Source: Thermoproteota archaeon (GTDB taxonomy: Archaea; Korarchaeota; Korarchaeia; B14-G2). Taken from it: DNA of 9,318 nucleotides. The notes under the pieces were generated by a model that was given only the letters and a program-made list of their open reading frames with translations, searched no databases and was not told the DNA's origin. Every line of letters begins with the position of its first letter. Within the stretch, counting starts at the first letter, position 1. The translations under genes were made by a program, and so were the position numbers. This document shows positions 1 through 9,318 of this stretch, piece after piece. Location: contig QMWA01000056.1 of assembly GCA_003661385.1 (NCBI GenBank), positions 1 to 9,318 of the forward strand, in the 5' to 3' direction.

Positions 1-138
1 CACCTTAATGTACTCTGGAGCAGGCTCTAGTGTAGGCGGTGGAGCAGGTGTAGGAGCTTGGCCAACACACCCTGCAGTCACCACAGTAGCTAGCAGCAGA
101 AGAGCCATAGGCCAGATCCTTAACCTCCTATCCAGCAT
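1..138 (-). CDS. N-terminal part of a secreted lipoprotein (gene continues beyond the left edge)
   Basis: Reading the minus strand from ATG at 138 gives 46 open codons that reach base 1 exactly in frame, so the gene is cut by the window edge. The product starts with a basic n-region (MLDRRLR), then a hydrophobic stretch (about residues 9-22), then a lipobox TAGC with Cys24 as the predicted lipidated residue. A short Pro/Thr/Ala-rich linker (residues 28-41) follows before the sequence runs out. Signal, lipobox and linker have the same plan as LivK next door, including Cys at position 24, so a second ABC solute-binding protein is the likeliest identity. That is inference, because no ligand-binding domain is visible. 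It diverges from the liv operon. A TATA-like TTTAAA 28-33 bases upstream of the start fits a nearly leaderless transcript. Confidence 0.75.
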   Translation of the reverse strand, partial: MLDRRLRIWPMALLLLATVVTAGCVGQAPTPAPPPTLEPAPEYIKV

Positions 139-165
139 GCTAAGCCAGTGCCCCACTACTGCGGC

Positions 166-171
166 TTTAAA
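166..171 (-). promoter_or_regulatory. TATA-like box for the minus-strand lipoprotein gene
   Basis: The self-complementary hexamer TTTAAA lies 28-33 bases upstream of the ATG at 138. An archaeal start about 26 bases downstream of the box centre would fall near 143, leaving only a few leader bases. The box is a short match, so confidence is modest. Confidence 0.4.
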
Positions 172-412
172 GCGTTTTGGCAGAAGGAAGCATTTAGATG
201 GAAGCTCAGCTGCAGCATAGGCCACCACAAGACACCGCAGCAGCTGATGGGGGATACCGAGAGAGCCAGCGGGGAAGCAGCAGGCTGCTAGCTACACCCA
301 GCTGCCAGCATGCCGAGCTGTTGAAGGCCTCTCATACCCTAACTCCCACAGCCTCATCATGCCCAGTGAGGCTGCTGAGGAACTCAGATGCAATGTCCTT
401 CTCAGGTCTATA

Positions 413-470: not shown

Positions 471-510
471 AGACGGTTAAATGTCCCCCAGGTGGTGCAG
501 AGAAACCCCT

Positions 511-516
511 AGGGTG
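511..516 (+). promoter_or_regulatory. Shine-Dalgarno of livK (decides the start)
   Basis: AGGGTG has its GGTG core at 513-516, six bases before the GTG at 523. The core-to-start spacing is identical to that of livH, livM, livG and livF, so it selects 523 rather than the in-frame ATG at 481. Confidence 0.6.
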
Positions 517-522
517 TTGTGT

Positions 523-1878
523 GTGAGGAGAAGAACCTTCCGACATATGCTGATAGCATCAATTGCCCTAATAGCCATAATGTTAGCTGGATGCATAGGG
601 CAGAAGCCCACACCAACACCTACGCCAACACCTACAGTCAAGCCTACACCAAAGCCAACCCCCACACCAACTCCGACTCCAACCCCCACACCGACACCTA
701 CACCAGTCAAGGAGAAGATAGTCTTCGGCGGCACACTGTCTCTGAAGGGCAAGTATGAGCACGAGGGCAAGCAGGCTCTCTGGGGGATACTGGCTGCAGT
801 TGAGTGGATCAATAAGCACGGCGGGATAAAGGTCGGTGGCAAGACATATAAGCTGGAGTACAAGTACTATGACGATGAGAGCAAGCCTGAGAGGGTTCCA
901 GAGCTCTACAGCAAGCTGATCGAGGAGGACAAGGTGGACTTCCTTATAGCACCATACTCCTCACTGCTCACTAAGGCAGCTGCCCCAGTAGCTGAGACCC
1001 ACAAGGTCGTTATGATAAGCCATGGTGGAGCAAGTGACACGATCTATGAGCAGGGCTACAAGTACTTCGTTGGCGCACTGAGCCCTGCATCATACTACAT
1101 GAGGTCTGTCGTCGAGCTGCTGGCAACGATGAAGGACCCTGAGATAAAGATCGCCCTAATATACGAGAACACCCCGTTCCCAGCTGCTGTCATGAAGGGA
1201 GCTAAGGAGGCTGCAGCTGAGAAGGGCCTTAAGATAGTCTACGAGTTCAGGTATGAGAGGGGTGTGACAGAGTTTGGCTCGCCTATCTCAGAGGCCATTG
1301 CAGCTGGAGCAAACGTCCTGCTTGGAGGGGGGCACTTCGCTGACAGCACAGCTCTGACAAGGCAGGCCTGGGAGATGGGGTGGAAGCTGAAGGCCATAGC
1401 TGTCCTGGTAGCGCCAACGCTGCCAGAGTTCTATGAGCAGCTGAAGGACGCTGCCAACGGTGTGATGGCTCCAGCCCAATGGGAGATTGGAGTAAAGTAC
1501 TCACCTGAAGCAGCTAAGAAGGAGGGGCTTGAGTGGTATGGGCCCACAAACGAGGAGTTCATAGCCATGGTCAAGAAGATCTCAGGAGGTATTGAGCCAG
1601 ACTACCACGCCACCGAGGCAGCTGCAGCAGTCCTGTGCCTAGCTAAGGCCATAGAGAAGGCTGGGAGCCTAAGCCAGGATGCAGTCAGGACAGCAATGAA
1701 CGGCATGAAGCTTATGACCTGCTTCGGCCCATGGTGGATAGACCCCAAGACAGGGAAGGGAGTAGGGCACCCGATGGTAGTCATCCAGTGGCAGAACGGG
1801 AAGAAGGAGATAGTGTGGCCTGAGAGCGCTGCCACAGCTAAGCCAGTGTACCCAGCGCCAAACTGGTGGAAGAGGTAG
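523..1878 (+). CDS. livK: Branched-chain amino acid/amide ABC transporter, lipid-anchored substrate-binding protein
   Basis: This is the extracellular receptor that captures the substrate and delivers it to the LivH/LivM channel. From GTG 523 it has 451 residues: a basic n-region (RRRTFRH), a hydrophobic core, lipobox LAGC with Cys24, a Pro-Thr linker (residues 29-61), then a type I periplasmic-binding fold of the Peripla_BP_6/LivK family. Family-typical stretches are GTLSLKGKYEHEGKQA with WINKHGG near the start, DFLIAPYSS, ISHGGASD and the AEKGLKIVYEFRY segment after the hinge. The first gene of a tight operon, it is followed by both permeases and both ATPases, which makes the assignment firm. 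An upstream ATG at 481 adds 14 residues but lies above the predicted transcript start. The ligand is unknown; amides, urea or other amino acids are possible within this family. Confidence 0.9.
   Translation: MRRRTFRHMLIASIALIAIMLAGCIGQKPTPTPTPTPTVKPTPKPTPTPTPTPTPTPTPTPVKEKIVFGGTLSLKGKYEHEGKQALWGILAAVEWINKHGGIKVGGKTYKLEYKYYDDESKPERVPELYSKLIEEDKVDFLIAPYSSLLTKAAAPVAETHKVVMISHGGASDTIYEQGYKYFVGALSPASYYMRSVVELLATMKDPEIKIALIYENTPFPAAVMKGAKEAAAEKGLKIVYEFRYERGVTEFGSPISEAIAAGANVLLGGGHFADSTALTRQAWEMGWKLKAIAVLVAPTLPEFYEQLKDAANGVMAPAQWEIGVKYSPEAAKKEGLEWYGPTNEEFIAMVKKISGGIEPDYHATEAAAAVLCLAKAIEKAGSLSQDAVRTAMNGMKLMTCFGPWWIDPKTGKGVGHPMVVIQWQNGKKEIVWPESAATAKPVYPAPNWWKR
607..705 (+). repeat. Pro-Thr dipeptide repeat encoding the LivK linker
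   Basis: These 33 codons are almost entirely alternating Pro and Thr, interrupted by Val-Lys and Lys. They form a flexible, possibly O-glycosylated spacer between the lipidated cysteine and the binding domain, as is common in archaeal surface binding proteins. Codons vary (cca, ccc, cct, ccg; aca, acc, act, acg), so the DNA is an imperfect six-base repeat. The opposite strand reads as a spurious Gly-Val repeat frame. Confidence 0.9.
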
Positions 1879-1898
1879 CTTACCCCACTTCTTCTTTT

Positions 1899-1904
1899 GG
1901 TGGT
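1899..1904 (+). promoter_or_regulatory. Shine-Dalgarno of livH
   Basis: GGTGGT lies four bases before ATG 1909, with the GGTG core ten bases upstream of the start as elsewhere in the operon. It overlaps the in-frame TTG (1897) and GTG (1900) codons, which makes those poor start choices. Confidence 0.6.
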
Positions 1905-1908
1905 CTAC

Positions 1909-2826
1909 ATGGGCTTAGCCACCTTCGTGATTAGCATAGTACATGGGCTACTCTGGGGTGTAGTTCTAGGTGCTGTTTCAGCTGGGCTAACACTCATCTG
2001 GGGCGTCATGAAGGTCGTGAACGTGGCTCATGGGGAGGTTGCTCTGCTAGGCTCATACCTGATAGTAGGGCTGTACTGTGCCTTAGGGCTCTCACCGTAC
2101 ATAGCCCTCATCATAGCGCTGGCCTCGGGTTTAGCTGTGGGGATAGCGATGTACTGGGGCATGCTGCATAAGCTGGTTGGGAAGGTTGAGGTCATGACTC
2201 TGAGAGTTGAGATGTCTACGCTGCTGATAATGTTCGCGTTCTCAGTGGCTATAACAAACTCGTACTACTACTTCATAGGGTCTGAGCCGAAGGGCCTAGG
2301 GCTCTGGCACTTCGGGCCGAAGTCCAACATTAACATAGGCTACCTGGTCATAAGGACGAACTCCATCCTGGCATGCATCCTGGCAGTAGCTCTGGTAGCT
2401 GTGCTGCACCTCCTGCTAGCTAAGACAACGCTAGGCAAGGCGATAAGAGCTGTCATGCAGGATGCTCAGGCAGCTTCGCTCGTGGGAATCAACCCAGTGA
2501 AGATCAAGATGCAGACAACCATGATATCCATAGCTGTAACCATGCTCTCTGGCTTCCTGATCCTCCTACATGAGACCTCGATAATCCCAGGGACTGCAGC
2601 TCTGTACACACCTCTCTCCTTCGTCATCGTGGTGCTAGGTGGCCTAGGGAACATAATGGGCTCCTTCGTGGGCGGGCTGATAATAGGGCTGGTGTATGGG
2701 CTCTCTAAGGCTGTGATAGCATCTGTCTTCAACCCTCTCGCCAGCGCTCCGCTAGCCCTCTCGATAGCCTTCATAATACTGGTGCTCACGCTACTGTTCA
2801 AGCCTGAGGGGCTGTTCGGGAGGTGA
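1909..2826 (+). CDS. livH: Branched-chain amino acid ABC transporter, permease LivH
   Basis: One of two membrane subunits forming the translocation channel of the importer, acting with LivM. The 305-residue product is almost wholly hydrophobic with about eight likely membrane segments. It carries the LivH hallmark near the N-terminus (NVAHGEVALLGSY, residues 38-50) and the cytoplasmic coupling-helix region (GKAIRAVMQDAQAASLVGIN, residues 176-195) that docks on the ATPase subunits. It ends with LFKPEGLFGR, a typical LivH tail. The start at ATG 1909 is chosen for its Shine-Dalgarno; TTG 1897 and GTG 1900 are in frame but sit on that site. Thirty bases separate it from livK, so it is almost certainly cotranscribed. 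Length is normal for the family. Confidence 0.93.
   Translation: MGLATFVISIVHGLLWGVVLGAVSAGLTLIWGVMKVVNVAHGEVALLGSYLIVGLYCALGLSPYIALIIALASGLAVGIAMYWGMLHKLVGKVEVMTLRVEMSTLLIMFAFSVAITNSYYYFIGSEPKGLGLWHFGPKSNINIGYLVIRTNSILACILAVALVAVLHLLLAKTTLGKAIRAVMQDAQAASLVGINPVKIKMQTTMISIAVTMLSGFLILLHETSIIPGTAALYTPLSFVIVVLGGLGNIMGSFVGGLIIGLVYGLSKAVIASVFNPLASAPLALSIAFIILVLTLLFKPEGLFGR
2819..2825 (+). promoter_or_regulatory. Shine-Dalgarno of livM overlapping the livH stop
   Basis: GGAGGTG is the strongest anti-Shine-Dalgarno match in the operon and overlaps the livH TGA. Its GGTG core (2822-2825) is exactly ten bases before TTG 2832. ATG 2826 would directly abut the site with no spacer, so TTG 2832 is the better start. 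Confidence 0.55.
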
Positions 2827-2831
2827 TGGTG

Positions 2832-3839
2832 TTGAGCAGCTTCAGCGAGCTGAAAGCCAGGCTTCTGAAGCCTACTCCACTGCTCATCATCCTCCTGATA
2901 GCTGCAGTAGCTGTGGCACGCTTGCTTAACCTGACTACACTGGATACGATGACGATCTTCATGTACTTCATAGCTATAGCTGCCTCACTGAACCTCATCA
3001 TGGGCTTCACGGGGTACGTGAGCTTCGGCCACTGTGTATTCCTTGGGATAGGCGCGTACATCTATGCTCTCATGGTGTACTATGTGCCCTGGGCTAACGC
3101 GCTGCAGAAGACTGGAGGCCTCGGTATAATAGCTGTCGCGTTAATTGCAGCAGTTATAGCTGCTTTGGTGGCTGCAGCCGTAGGGCTAGCGGTGCTTAGG
3201 CTTAGGGGAGCATTCTTCGCGATAGCTACGATAGGCTTGGACTTCGCAGTACTCTACATCGTGATGGGGACTGTGCCCTTCATCAACCCAGAGCAGTTCT
3301 ATGGTGCTCAAGTGATCTTGCCAAGCAGGTGCCTCGTGTCAAAGACCTCGACTTTCACTGCCATGTTCATCACGATGGCGCTAGTCCTCGCCACAAACTA
3401 CCTGGTGAGGAAGTCGAGGTTCGGCATGGGGCTCGTAGCCATAAATGAGGACGAGGATGCAGCTGAGGTCATGGGGGTCCCTACTGCGAAGTACAAGACG
3501 CTAGCCTTCACCCTGAGCGCCTTCTTCACAGCTCTAGCTGGCGCAGTCTTCTACCTGAACGGTGGCGGAGTGTCTCCTGAGGCATTTGACCTAGCACACA
3601 CCGTGGACATGATTGTGATGATCGTCATAGGAGGCTTAGGGACTGTCTCAGGGCCTATAGTCGGTGGCATAGTGTACTACTGGCTCTATGACACTCTGCT
3701 AGTACACTACCCTGGCGTCAACCTGATAATCCTCGGGATCATAGTAGGGCTGATAATACTCTTCGCTCCAGAGGGTGTAGTCGGGATACTCAGGAGGTAT
3801 GAGTTTAAGGGGGTGAAGCTTAGAGAGGTGCTTGAGTAG
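2832..3839 (+). CDS. livM: Branched-chain amino acid ABC transporter, permease LivM
   Basis: The second membrane subunit of the importer. From TTG 2832 it has 335 residues, with a short basic N-terminus (residues 1-16) and then about eight to ten hydrophobic segments. The LivM hallmark LNLIMGFTGYVSFGHCVFLG lies at about residues 53-72, corresponding to the NxxxG(Y/F)xGxxSxGH motif of the family. The cytoplasmic coupling segment (SRFGMGLVAINEDEDAAEVMGV) is at about residues 195-216. A second conserved region, VIGGLGTVSGPIVGG, lies toward the C-terminus, followed by FAPEGVVGILRR. GTG 2823 and ATG 2826 are alternative in-frame starts that would overlap the livH stop; the difference is at most three residues. 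Only five bases separate it from livH, so translation is probably coupled. Confidence 0.92.
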   Translation: MSSFSELKARLLKPTPLLIILLIAAVAVARLLNLTTLDTMTIFMYFIAIAASLNLIMGFTGYVSFGHCVFLGIGAYIYALMVYYVPWANALQKTGGLGIIAVALIAAVIAALVAAAVGLAVLRLRGAFFAIATIGLDFAVLYIVMGTVPFINPEQFYGAQVILPSRCLVSKTSTFTAMFITMALVLATNYLVRKSRFGMGLVAINEDEDAAEVMGVPTAKYKTLAFTLSAFFTALAGAVFYLNGGGVSPEAFDLAHTVDMIVMIVIGGLGTVSGPIVGGIVYYWLYDTLLVHYPGVNLIILGIIVGLIILFAPEGVVGILRRYEFKGVKLREVLE

Positions 3840-3844
3840 GTGGT
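3838..3844 (+). promoter_or_regulatory. Shine-Dalgarno of livG overlapping the livM stop
   Basis: AGGTGGT begins inside the livM TAG and lies four bases before ATG 3849. The nine bases TAGGTGGTT are repeated identically at the livG/livF junction, suggesting the same terminate-and-restart arrangement at both. Confidence 0.6.
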
Positions 3845-3848
3845 TGCC

Positions 3849-4613
3849 ATGCCTGAAGCCATCTTGACCGTGGAGAATGTGACAAAGAGGTTTGGTGGGC
3901 TAGTAGCCTTGAACAAGGTTAACATCGACGTGTATGATGGGGAGATACTTGGGCTGATAGGACCTAATGGAGCAGGCAAGACAACACTGTTCAACGTGAT
4001 ATCAGGCGTGTACAAGCCTGAAGGGGGGAAAGTCTACTTTGAGGGAGTTGAGATCACTGGGAAGCCTGCCCACCAGATAACACGCATGGGGATTGCTAGA
4101 ACCCACCAGATAGTCAAGCCATTCAACGACATGACTGTGCTTGAGAACACGATGATAGGAGTGCTGTTCGGTAGGCTTGCGGGCAAGGTGTCCATGAGTG
4201 AAGCCAGAGAGAAGGCCATGAAGGTCCTTGAGCTAGTTGGGCTAGATGGCAAGGCAAGCGAGCTGGCAAGCAAGCTGACGTTGCATGAGAAGAGGATCCT
4301 TGAGCTAGCTAGAGCCCTGGCTGCTGAGCCTAAGCTCCTCTTGCTAGACGAGGTGCTAGCAGGCTTGAACCCCAAGGAGATAGAGGAGAGCTTAAAGATA
4401 ATCAAGGAGACCAAGGAGGCTAAGCAGCTGACAGTAATCATGGTAGAGCACGTAATGCACGCTGTAATGAACATCGCAGACAGGATAGTCGTCCTGCACT
4501 ACGGAGAGAAGATAGCAGAGGGCAAGCCAGTAGAGGTAGCTAACGACATCAAGGTCGTAGAAGCCTACCTAGGTGACAGAGATCTTGCACTGAAGTTTGT
4601 TAAAGTCAAGTAG
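3849..4613 (+). CDS. livG: Branched-chain amino acid ABC transporter, ATPase LivG
   Basis: A cytoplasmic ATP-hydrolysing subunit that pairs with LivF and drives LivHM. The 254-residue product has Walker A GPNGAGKTT (residues 38-46), Q-loop Gln87 in ARTHQIVKPF, Walker B LLLLDE (163-168) and H-loop His201 in MVEHVMH. The ABC signature is LTLHEKR (143-149) rather than LSGGQ; LivG proteins often have a diverged TLP-type signature, so this is probably normal. The LivG-type C-terminus is seen in the EGKPVEVANDIKVVEAYLG segment. ATG 3849 is chosen by its Shine-Dalgarno; GTG 3840 is in frame but part of that site. It lies nine bases after livM and nine before livF. Confidence 0.93.
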   Translation: MPEAILTVENVTKRFGGLVALNKVNIDVYDGEILGLIGPNGAGKTTLFNVISGVYKPEGGKVYFEGVEITGKPAHQITRMGIARTHQIVKPFNDMTVLENTMIGVLFGRLAGKVSMSEAREKAMKVLELVGLDGKASELASKLTLHEKRILELARALAAEPKLLLLDEVLAGLNPKEIEESLKIIKETKEAKQLTVIMVEHVMHAVMNIADRIVVLHYGEKIAEGKPVEVANDIKVVEAYLGDRDLALKFVKVK

Positions 4614-4618
4614 GTGGT
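4612..4618 (+). promoter_or_regulatory. Shine-Dalgarno of livF overlapping the livG stop
   Basis: AGGTGGT runs out of the livG TAG and lies four bases before TTG 4623. The in-frame GTG at 4614 is inside the site, so TTG is the likely start. Confidence 0.6.
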
Positions 4619-4622
4619 TAAG

Positions 4623-5336
4623 TTGGCGGTTCTTGAGCTAGATAAGGTTGACACAGGGTATGGTGAAGCCCAGGCGCTCTGGGATGTATCCCTCAAAGTC
4701 CAGGAAGGAGGGATAACAGTAGTACTTGGAAGCAACGGGGCAGGCAAGACCACAACGCTCAGAGTGATCACAGGCATCCTAAGCCCATGGAAAGGTGATG
4801 TGAAGTTCCTGGGAAAGAGCATAGTAGGAACTCCACCGCACAAGAGAGCTGAAATGGGGATAATCATGGTCCCAGAAGGGAGAAGGCTCTGGCCTCAGCT
4901 GACAGTATACGAGACCCTAGAGCTTGGAGCATACACCAACCGCGCGAAAGAGAAGTTCAGCGAGAACCTCGAGCTAGTATACCAGCTCTTCCCAGTCCTG
5001 AAGGAGAGGTCTAAGCAGCTAGCTGGAACCTTAAGCGGCGGAGAAAGCCAGATGCTAGCCATAGCTAGGGCCTTAATGTCATCACCGAGGATACTCCTCA
5101 TGGATGAGCCAAGCCTCGGGCTAGCCCCAAAGATAGTCCTAGATGTCTTCAAGGTAATTGAGAAGCTGAGAGACGACTTAAAGATGACCGTCCTGCTAGT
5201 AGAGCAAAACATCCACATGGCTCTCCAGATAGCAGACTACGGGTATGTCCTCGAGCAAGGCAGGATAGTAATGGAGGGAACCAGAGAGGAGCTGGAGAGA
5301 AGCGAGAAGATAAGAAAAGCCTACCTAGGTCTATGA
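4623..5336 (+). CDS. livF: Branched-chain amino acid ABC transporter, ATPase LivF
   Basis: The second cytoplasmic ATPase of the importer. From TTG 4623 it has 237 residues, the usual LivF length. Visible motifs are Walker A GSNGAGKTT (residues 36-44), the LivF-typical VPEGRRLWPQLTVYETLELGA region (about 83-103), ABC signature LSGGE (127-131), Walker B LLMDE (148-152) followed by PSLGLAP, and VEQN at the H-loop position, where LivF proteins characteristically carry Gln instead of His. The C-terminal EKIRKAYLG is also typical. It is the last gene of the operon: the sequence after it is decayed remnants with no clear T-rich terminator. A diverged, broken second livF lies about 100 bases downstream on the other strand. 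Confidence 0.93.
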   Translation: MAVLELDKVDTGYGEAQALWDVSLKVQEGGITVVLGSNGAGKTTTLRVITGILSPWKGDVKFLGKSIVGTPPHKRAEMGIIMVPEGRRLWPQLTVYETLELGAYTNRAKEKFSENLELVYQLFPVLKERSKQLAGTLSGGESQMLAIARALMSSPRILLMDEPSLGLAPKIVLDVFKVIEKLRDDLKMTVLLVEQNIHMALQIADYGYVLEQGRIVMEGTREELERSEKIRKAYLGL

Positions 5337-5429
5337 GCTCTCGTCCAGACTGCTAAGAGCTTGAGAAGCTTGCAAGACCTCCCCACATATATTTGCATGA
5401 AACAGCTTGAGGGCACCCACTCTAATCAC

Positions 5430-5676
5430 TAAGCATTGAGCAGCCAGCTGGCTTCTCCTCTCCTTCAGCTTGGGGAAAGCTGGTATACCCACTCTAAAGT
5501 GTCATCCTTCTTCTCTCCAGCCTCCCTCGTATAGGCGCCCAGCTCCAAGTTCTCTAGGACAGTCATATATGGAAAGAGCCTCCTGCCTTCTGGTATGTGA
5601 GCTATACCTTTCTCGACTATCTTGTGAGGTGGAAGCCTGTCTATCCTCTCCCCATAGAGCTTATTTCACCTGGCTG
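5430..5676 (-). pseudogene. livF: Remnant of a second livF (internal fragment, frameshifted)
   Basis: The minus strand from 5659 to 5480 is a 60-codon open stretch with unmistakable LivF content: DRLPPHKIVEKGIAHIPEG, then RRLFPYMTVLENLELGAYTR, then LEWVYQL. Both ends continue in other frames. Upstream, 5676-5662 reads QPGEI before a one-base shift. Downstream, one missing base in a Leu codon near 5478 is followed by FPKLKERRSQLA. After 5441 the LSGG signature is absent, with only a faint match to the following ARAL region. Walker A and the N-terminus are missing. It differs from the neighbouring intact LivF at roughly half the positions, so it is a separate paralogue and not a recent copy. 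The fragment stops within a few bases of where larA-like sequence begins on the other strand. Confidence 0.8.
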
Positions 5677-5677
5677 C

Positions 5678-6095
5678 GCGCGCCCAAAGGACATTAACCT
5701 ATACCAGGCTACACGCGCAGCGAACAGTCTTGTACTGACCTCTAAGCCAGCTGTAAGGCGTGGAGGCGTCATAATAATACCAGCTAGGTGTCAAGAGGAG
5801 GTTTGGTAGCAAAGTTTTCTATGAGCAGATGAGGAAAGGAAGCCCTCTAGAGATCTTGGACAAGCTGAAGAAATCTCAGACTCTAGGAGCACATAAACCC
5901 TACATCATGGCAAAAATGCTAGCCCATGCACACGTGATAGTAGCGGGATCAGAGGGCCCTGAGAGCATACTGATAGAGATGAACATGATCCCAGCTCGAG
6001 ATCTACAAGAAGCACTGGAGAAAGCACTTCAGATAGCAGGAGGAGACGCCAGGGTATACGTTGCCCCACAGGCTTTTCAACAGTTCCTGTCGTAG
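5678..6095 (+). pseudogene. larA: C-terminal remnant of a LarA-family (nickel-pincer lactate racemase-like) gene, frameshifted
   Basis: Two adjoining frames together give the last ~138 residues of a LarA/DUF2088 protein, normally over 400 residues long. From about 5678 the first frame reads ARPKDINLYQATRAAN and VRRGGVIIIPARCQEE, then hits TAG at 5807. The homology resumes one frame over, from about 5802, as FGSKVFYEQMRKGSPLEILDKL and ends with a normal-looking family C-terminus (MIPARDLQEALEKALQ, GGDARVYVAPQ) and TAG at 6093. A net one-base gain or two-base loss near 5795-5801 explains the switch. The N-terminal domain and the residues that bind the cofactor and catalyse racemisation are absent, so this cannot be active. 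An 88-residue frame from ATG 5829 is only the tail of this remnant. Family assignment rests on recalled motifs. Confidence 0.7.
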
Positions 6096-6160
6096 AAGGC
6101 CAACACAGCTATCCCTAGCAGTAGTTACAGCTTAGATCCCCCTCACGGAACCTCAGGAAG

Positions 6161-6168
6161 CTTATAAG
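6161..6168 (+). promoter_or_regulatory. TATA-like box upstream of a broken frame
   Basis: CTTATAAG is a good archaeal TATA match but is self-complementary, so its direction is uncertain. A plus-strand start near 6191 would precede ATG 6200 (four codons only, counting its stop) and ATG 6231 (22 codons to a TGA). It may be the surviving promoter of a decayed gene. Confidence 0.3.
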
Positions 6169-6230
6169 TCTCAGCAACCTTAAAGGCCAAGTAAAGCTTA
6201 TGGGTTCATAGAAGGAAGTCGGCTGGAGCA

Positions 6231-6479
6231 ATGAGAAAACCCTTCTTAGCTAGCAAGCCTGCAGCAAAAGAGGCTTTAGAGCAAGGGACAACTAGATGAG
6301 TGATCTCAGGAGGAGAACTTCATGGGAAATCTGTAGTCATCGCAATCATAGCATCTGACCTCTTAGACTTCAATATCAGTGTCCCAGAGAAAGCAAGCGC
6401 GCAGAGGACTCAGGTATACGTGTACTACAACAAAATATGTTCTTTCAGCACCATCGCTTCCTTCAGTAGGGAGAAGTGA
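6231..6479 (+). pseudogene. Unrecognised frame broken by one in-frame stop
   Basis: From ATG 6231 the frame codes 22 residues (MRKPFLASKPAAKEALEQGT and two more), meets TGA at 6297, and then stays open for 59 codons (6300-6476) to TGA 6477. The second part begins VISGGELHGKSVVIAIIASD, which looks like a beta-strand and helix segment of a real protein; the end is less convincing. GTG 6300 could begin a 59-residue small protein instead. I do not recognise the family. It sits just after the larA remnant on the same strand and may belong to the same decayed locus, but that is a guess. Confidence 0.25.
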
Positions 6480-6487
6480 TAAATTTT
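6479..6487 (+). promoter_or_regulatory. TATA box of the DUF1847 gene
   Basis: ATAAATTTT is centred near 6483. A start 26 bases downstream falls near 6509, within a few bases of GTG 6513, implying a very short leader or a leaderless transcript. Confidence 0.45.
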
Positions 6488-6512
6488 GGCTGCAGGGGGG
6501 GTGGGTGGTGCT

Positions 6513-7169
6513 GTGGACACTCCGGTATGTGCTAAGTGTGATTATAAGTTCTGTCATAGGGGGGTTACAGACCCTAAGGTGCTCCCTGACTTCTGTCCTA
6601 TGAAGCTGCATAGAGATGTTATAGAGGAGAGCCTAAGGGAATATGATGGGGACATGGAGCTCAGGAAGCTCTACGTTAATGCTACAATCTGCGAGTATGA
6701 GGCCTATGACACCTCTGGTGGGAGGTTTACTCCTGTTAGGCCTAGGGTTAGGGAGCTCATAGAGTTTGCCAAGAAGATAGGGGTGGAGAAAATAGGGATA
6801 GCGTTCTGTATTGGGCTCAGCAGAGAGGCTAGAGCTCTTACTGAAGTCCTTGAGTCACATGGCTTTAAGGTGTACTCTGCATTATGTAAGTGTGGTGCTG
6901 TGGATAAGGTGAAGCTGCATGTTCCAGCTGAGTACAAGCTTAGAGGACCAGATAAGTTTGAGGCTGCCTGCAACCCTGTTCTCCAAGCTAGGCTCCTCAA
7001 CATGGCTGGGACCCAGCTTAATGTTATAGTGGGCTTGTGCATTGGGCATGACATAATCTTCACGAGGTACTCTAAGGCCCCAGTAACTACTCTGATAGTG
7101 AAAGATAGGCTAACTGGGCATAACCCAGCTGTAGCGCTGTACACGTACTATCACAGAGCATATCTCTGA
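6513..7169 (+). CDS. DUF1847 family cysteine-rich, probably metal-binding protein
   Basis: From GTG 6513 this 218-residue protein matches the DUF1847 family in overall plan. An N-terminal Cys cluster (Cys6, Cys9, Cys14, Cys28) is followed by the family core: EFAKKIGVEKIGIAFCIGLS (about 82-101), an ALCKCGAVDK segment with Cys125 and Cys127, EAACNPVLQARLLNMAGTQLN with Cys153, IVGLCIGHDIIFTRYSKAPV with Cys176 and His179, and a VKDRLTGHNPAVALYTYYHR tail. Ten cysteines in a thermophile-type protein with CxxC and CxC pairs suggest bound metal or a metal cluster, but the family's function is unknown to me. TTG 6486 is an in-frame alternative that would start at the TATA box, so it is disfavoured. 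It stands alone, separated from its neighbours by non-coding DNA. Confidence 0.85.
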   Translation: MDTPVCAKCDYKFCHRGVTDPKVLPDFCPMKLHRDVIEESLREYDGDMELRKLYVNATICEYEAYDTSGGRFTPVRPRVRELIEFAKKIGVEKIGIAFCIGLSREARALTEVLESHGFKVYSALCKCGAVDKVKLHVPAEYKLRGPDKFEAACNPVLQARLLNMAGTQLNVIVGLCIGHDIIFTRYSKAPVTTLIVKDRLTGHNPAVALYTYYHRAYL

Positions 7170-8592: not shown

Positions 8593-9318
8593 TTAGAGAT
8601 TTAATGTGACCAATATCACACCTAGCATTATGCTAAGGGCTCCAGCTATAAGCTCAGAGGTCACGGTCTCGATTTCTTTGAGGAACATGTAGGAGAAGAG
8701 GGATACGAAGAGGGGTTCTGAACCGAGGATTGGAGTGACCACGCTTACATCAGCGTACCTGAGAGCGTAGAATGAAAAAACCCATCCCAGGCACATCCCA
8801 ACTGCTCCCTTCCAAAGAAGCTTAAAGGACTCAGCATCTAGAGTGGTGTAGCTTCTTAAAGCTGGGGAGGCTGTGAGTAGTATGGAGTATAATATGGATG
8901 CTGAGAGAAAGCCGAGAGCAACGCCCACAAGGGGCTCGTTATACAGCTTTAACCCCGCTTTCCTGACTACATATCCGAGAGCTGTCGTCAAAGCTGCAGA
9001 AGCAGGGTAAGCTAGCTTCCTCCAAGAGCCTTCGCCTATGCTAGATATGCTCCTCTGCACCAGGGCAGCACCTACTACAACACATAGTGCACCAGCTAAA
9101 ACTTTAACTTGAGGGCGTTCTCCAATCAAGAGCATAGCAATCACGGTGCTAAATAGAGGGTACGTGGCGAAGATTGAAGCGTTTGCAGACGCTCCAACCT
9201 CTTCCATGCCCTTAAAGTAGAGAATCCTGACCACACCAGGGTGCAGGAAGCCTGCAGCCAGGAAGATGAGCACACCATGCACATTAACTGGGCTCTTACA
9301 TGCTACTATAATGGCTAA
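8593..9318 (-). CDS. EamA/DMT family permease, N-terminus beyond the right edge
   Basis: The minus-strand frame stays open from base 9318 to TAA at 8593 (241 residues). A GTG at 9282 could serve as a start, but the frame upstream (LAIIVACKSPVNV) still reads as protein. Full EamA proteins have ten helices and about 280-300 residues, so roughly the first one or two helices lie outside the window. The two-fold EamA repeat is seen. The end of the first copy is ASIFATYPLFSTVIAMLLIG followed by GERPQVKVLAGALCVVVGA. The second copy is DVSVVTPILGSEPLFVSLFS followed by KEIETVTSELIAGALSIMLG. Substrate is unknown; relatives export amino acids or metabolites. It is convergent with the MFS gene, with no clear T-rich terminator in the 41-base gap. 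Confidence 0.85.
   Translation of the reverse strand, partial: LAIIVACKSPVNVHGVLIFLAAGFLHPGVVRILYFKGMEEVGASANASIFATYPLFSTVIAMLLIGERPQVKVLAGALCVVVGAALVQRSISSIGEGSWRKLAYPASAALTTALGYVVRKAGLKLYNEPLVGVALGFLSASILYSILLTASPALRSYTTLDAESFKLLWKGAVGMCLGWVFSFYALRYADVSVVTPILGSEPLFVSLFSYMFLKEIETVTSELIAGALSIMLGVILVTLNL

Follow-up and report, generated by a model that had tools for sequence, protein, structure and literature searches.

The window analysed here, which is the entire contig C56 (9,318 nucleotides), most likely carries a real double pseudogene scar left by ordinary gene decay. The 1.15 kb between an intact livF gene and an intact DUF1847 gene is a gene graveyard with two occupants: on the minus strand, part of the interior of a second, divergent livF; on the plus strand, the C-terminal third of a gene for a LarA-type racemase. 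The scar is probably a rearrangement junction that joined livF and larA remnants of independent origin, the partner halves of which were lost. It resembles the usual pseudogene remnants found where prokaryotic chromosomes have been rearranged, with truncated and frameshifted fragments of conserved genes lying between intact ones, but here two distinct genes, in head-to-head orientation, come within 8 bases of each other at a GC palindrome. The window belongs to an archaeal genome, probably of the class Korarchaeia, of 1.74 Mb (206 contigs, 91%-complete assembly), the sole member of its family among the genomes compared. The following features were identified, with the basis of each assignment in brackets:

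481-1878, plus strand: binding protein of a liv-type operon (ORF, Pfam)
1897-2826, plus strand: LivH (ORF, order and similarity to relatives' liv operons)
2823-3839, plus strand: LivM (ORF, order and similarity to relatives' liv operons)
3840-4613, plus strand: LivG (ORF, order and similarity to relatives' liv operons)
4614-5336, plus strand: intact LivF (ORF, Pfam, order and similarity to relatives' liv operons)
5337-5438: non-coding gap from the intact livF to the livF fragment, with no recognisable remnant
5439-5676, minus strand: livF pseudogene fragment (profile and shuffle control, relatives, reading frames)
5676-5683: self-complementary junction octamer GCGCGCGC, bridging both fragments (sequence count)
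5684-6095, plus strand: larA-type pseudogene fragment (Pfam, profile, relatives, frame analysis)
6096-6485: non-coding and richer in AT (GC 0.454); no remnant recognised
6486-7169, plus strand: intact DUF1847 gene that follows the scar (Pfam PF08901, 2.5e-54)

Gene content of the window

The intact liv operon that the earlier note placed next to the scar is indeed present. It spans 481-5336 on the plus strand, and its gene order and similarity match the liv operons of relatives. Zero Pfam matches were obtained for further remnants in 5337-5438 and 6096-6485, an Rfam search for structured RNA returned no match, and no tRNA genes were found. At one end of the window, positions 1-228 (minus strand) contain the start of a lipoprotein-type protein gene with a VVTAGCVGQ signal and a proline-rich linker; this gene diverges from the liv operon and is cut off by the contig end. 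At the other end, an ORF at 8593-9318 (minus strand) resembles an EamA-type (DMT) permease by eye only and runs off the contig.

The LivF fragment

Profiles were built from relatives, with the LivF and LarA fragments excluded, and 1000 dinucleotide shuffles of 5337-6485 served as the control. The best shuffle scores were 4.5 bits for LivF and 3.8 bits for LarA (n=1000), and the two identities proposed in the earlier note were borne out by scores far above these. For LivF, the ATPase of the branched-chain amino-acid ABC importer, the profile scored 75.2 bits over model residues 65-130 (window 5659-5462, minus strand). A second frame at 5477-5439 (model 126-138) is weak alone at 6.9 bits, yet it is exactly consecutive with the first. 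By eye, in a six-frame reading, the homology stretches to about 5676 in a further frame (QPGEI). The minus-strand piece thus corresponds to model residues ~65-138 of 239, but unlike LivF itself it is frameshifted and has lost both ends. The reading frame is interrupted by two frameshifts, near 5475 and near 5661-5664, and the Walker A, LSGGE signature and Walker B motifs are all lacking.

At the DNA level, identity to the livF genes of relatives is 73% over 5443-5625. The protein is up to 66% identical to LivF of other genomes and 61% identical to the neighbouring intact LivF, and on this comparison an inverted duplication of the adjoining gene was ruled out. In a tree built on 73 residues, the fragment took no clear position.

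The LarA-type fragment

On the plus strand, homology to LarA starts at 5684, where CCA AAG GAC encodes the PKD of PKDINLYQ, and covers the C-terminal ~137 codons, that is, the C-terminal third of a larA-type gene, up to a stop at 6093-6095. Two adjacent frames, PKDINLYQ...CQEE (5684-5800) and FGSKVFYEQ...QQFLS (5802-6092), scored 64.8 and 47.7 bits and together cover the C-terminal domain; Pfam LarA_C (PF21113) matched at 1e-8, above the family cut-off. The frame breaks near 5801 (net +1) because of one extra base. As for the frameshifts that the earlier note mentioned in both pieces, the LarA side carries a single one and continues to the C-terminal end.

The LarA superfamily comprises NPN-dependent 2-hydroxyacid racemases and epimerases, and its N-terminal domain carries the cofactor lysine and the catalytic histidines. 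The piece is homologous to the C-terminal domain of these enzymes, but it is frameshifted and has no N-terminal domain, so an enzyme role is impossible; PF09861 (Lar_N) was absent from the window and from the genome at E<=1. Since the LivF piece lacks Walker A, signature and Walker B and the LarA piece lacks its N-terminal domain, no working protein is expected from either. An ORF at 5829-6095 on the LarA side (88 aa) does have an ATG and a well-preserved C-terminal motif, and it, or a recoded product, might still be expressed and functional. We regard this as hardly credible, given that the entire catalytic N-terminal domain is absent, the start falls inside the C-terminal domain, and the codon score of the segment is near zero.

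A first broad search placed the nearest intact LarA proteins in G143 (Candidatus Hadarchaeum, 41% identity) and G378 (40%), and a later search found a Bacillota protein with 45% identity. The fragment and the Hadarchaeum-type proteins have a short insertion in common (TYAYFASKPAV/NSLVLTSKPAV). In a tree of 56 C-terminal regions, the fragment grouped (96/98) with sequences from Hadarchaeum, Bacillota, Chloroflexota, Thermomicrobiota and Deltaproteobacteria, and the LarAs of Korarchaeia fell elsewhere.

The junction and the missing halves

The two homologies are separated only by positions 5677-5683, inside GCGCGCGC, an 8-base GC palindrome that occurs once in the window. This agrees with the earlier note, which described the two pieces as meeting head-to-head within a few bases, in a GC-rich run. 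That note had also proposed that each gene lost its N-terminal side at the join; both are truncated there, at 5676 and 5684, but the C-terminal half of LivF is missing too.

Searches of the 91%-complete assembly with the Lar_N profile (E<=1) did not find a LarA N-terminal half elsewhere, and a full-length LarA query against the same genome (E<=10) returned only the fragment and one chance match. The weak match at C42:1866-2099 was rejected as an N-terminal half, as it runs across other reading frames and contains no LarA motif. Queries with the LivF N-terminus matched almost exclusively within full-length ABC ATPases, together with one 62-aa open frame (C93:6868-7041, 38% identical). The N-terminal halves that the earlier note suggested seeking elsewhere in the genome were not recovered for LarA, and for LivF nearly all matches belong to full-length ATPases. 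The other halves of both genes could sit in the missing ~9% of the genome.

We infer that the two pieces were joined across the GC palindrome by a real chromosomal rearrangement and that the partner halves were lost; the join would be the breakpoint of an inversion or the product of a deletion between inverted genes. As for flanking repeats that might have caused recombination, long ones were not seen, and those present are short and weak. Both pieces lean toward the codon choice of the genes around them (z 4.8 for LivF; z 2.5-2.7 for LarA, a weak signal). Together with the small number of disablements, this suggests that both fragments are resident genes that decayed recently.

A junction located exactly in a self-complementary octamer unique in the window, within an assembly fragmented into 206 contigs, could also be an assembly or amplification chimera of two unrelated stretches brought together at the palindrome. 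This explanation appears quite improbable: each piece has frameshifts on its own side of the join, the rest of the genome contains no intact copy of the larA piece that could have been its source, and the 15-mer across the junction occurs just once in the genome.

Liv importers and larA in other genomes

The earlier note had attributed the scar to one lost locus that paired a Liv importer with a LarA-like enzyme, and looked to relatives for intact divergent livF and larA genes. This arrangement did not appear in the comparison, in which an adjacent divergent livF was found in 0 of the 99 LarA loci examined. In two Korarchaeia genomes (G004 and G001), a liv operon is located near larA, which shows that the two can be close together in this class. 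In both genomes, liv and larA lie 3.6-3.8 kb apart in the same direction with four genes between them. The order is liv operon, an Asp/Glu-racemase-like (Amdase) gene, 2,4-diaminopentanoate dehydrogenase, GLUCM-like and DUF2848 genes on the opposite strand, larA on the same strand as liv, and a Mem_trans permease. Their LarA proteins and the fragment fall in separate clades.

A single ancestral importer-and-racemase locus, in which livF and larA were divergently arranged and then lost their facing N-terminal halves through a deletion, would accord with the proximity of the two genes in these Korarchaeia. It would also accord with a bacterial locus (L198) in which livHMG is divergent from larA at about 5.4 kb, and with L146, where a liv-type binding protein lies beside larA in divergent orientation. 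The Korarchaeia cases, however, are co-directional, with four intervening genes and a LarA of another clade. Moreover, the closest homologues of the LarA fragment have no adjoining liv operon, and the closest archaeal ones have sugar-acid-type neighbours; in Hadarchaeum, larA is surrounded by genes for dihydroxy-acid/6-phosphogluconate dehydratase, zinc dehydrogenase, aldehyde:ferredoxin oxidoreductase and a JAB-domain protein. We consider a single ancestral locus unlikely and favour remnants of independent origin.

The stretch from the liv operon to the Mem_trans permease is a conserved island in the two Korarchaeia (L041 of G004, 90-10368; L042 of G001, 7485-16534) and appears to be a locus for the uptake and degradation of amino acids. 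Within the genome studied here, contig C80 (L043, 2163-7381) contains another intact liv operon, with an Asp/Glu-racemase-like (Amdase-like) gene behind it and no larA. The opening part of the G001/G004 island shows the same synteny.

The nickel cofactor pathway

An intact larB-larE-larC cluster was identified on contig C31 of the same genome (L217, 6347-9497), with adjacent LarC (1.8e-108) and LarE (8.1e-79) genes and a LarB-type AIRC protein. In its vicinity are a solute-binding protein, an ABC ATPase and a CbiQ-type permease. The larA-type remnant on C56 is the sole trace of LarA in the 91%-complete assembly. Genomes with larBEC and no larA represent about 15% of those analysed previously (PMC11796402). 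The present genome resembles them, as its assembly contains larB-larE-larC but lacks an intact larA; the difference is that a larA-type remnant is still visible here.

The co-occurrence of this remnant with a retained larBEC suggests, with 9% of the genome missing, that larA was lost while the nickel-cofactor pathway stayed. One tentative and rather doubtful extension is that, after a recent loss of LarA, the nickel-pincer-nucleotide cofactor may serve a protein other than LarA. The scar provides a concrete archaeal case for the question of what the cofactor serves in larBEC genomes without larA. Other combinations were observed among the compared genomes. LarC and LarE are present in G006, where LarA was not detected. 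LarA is present in G003, G004, G007, G009 and G020, where there was no PF01969 (LarC) match and no LarE above the cut-off; LarA in these five genomes would therefore need a scavenged or different cofactor.
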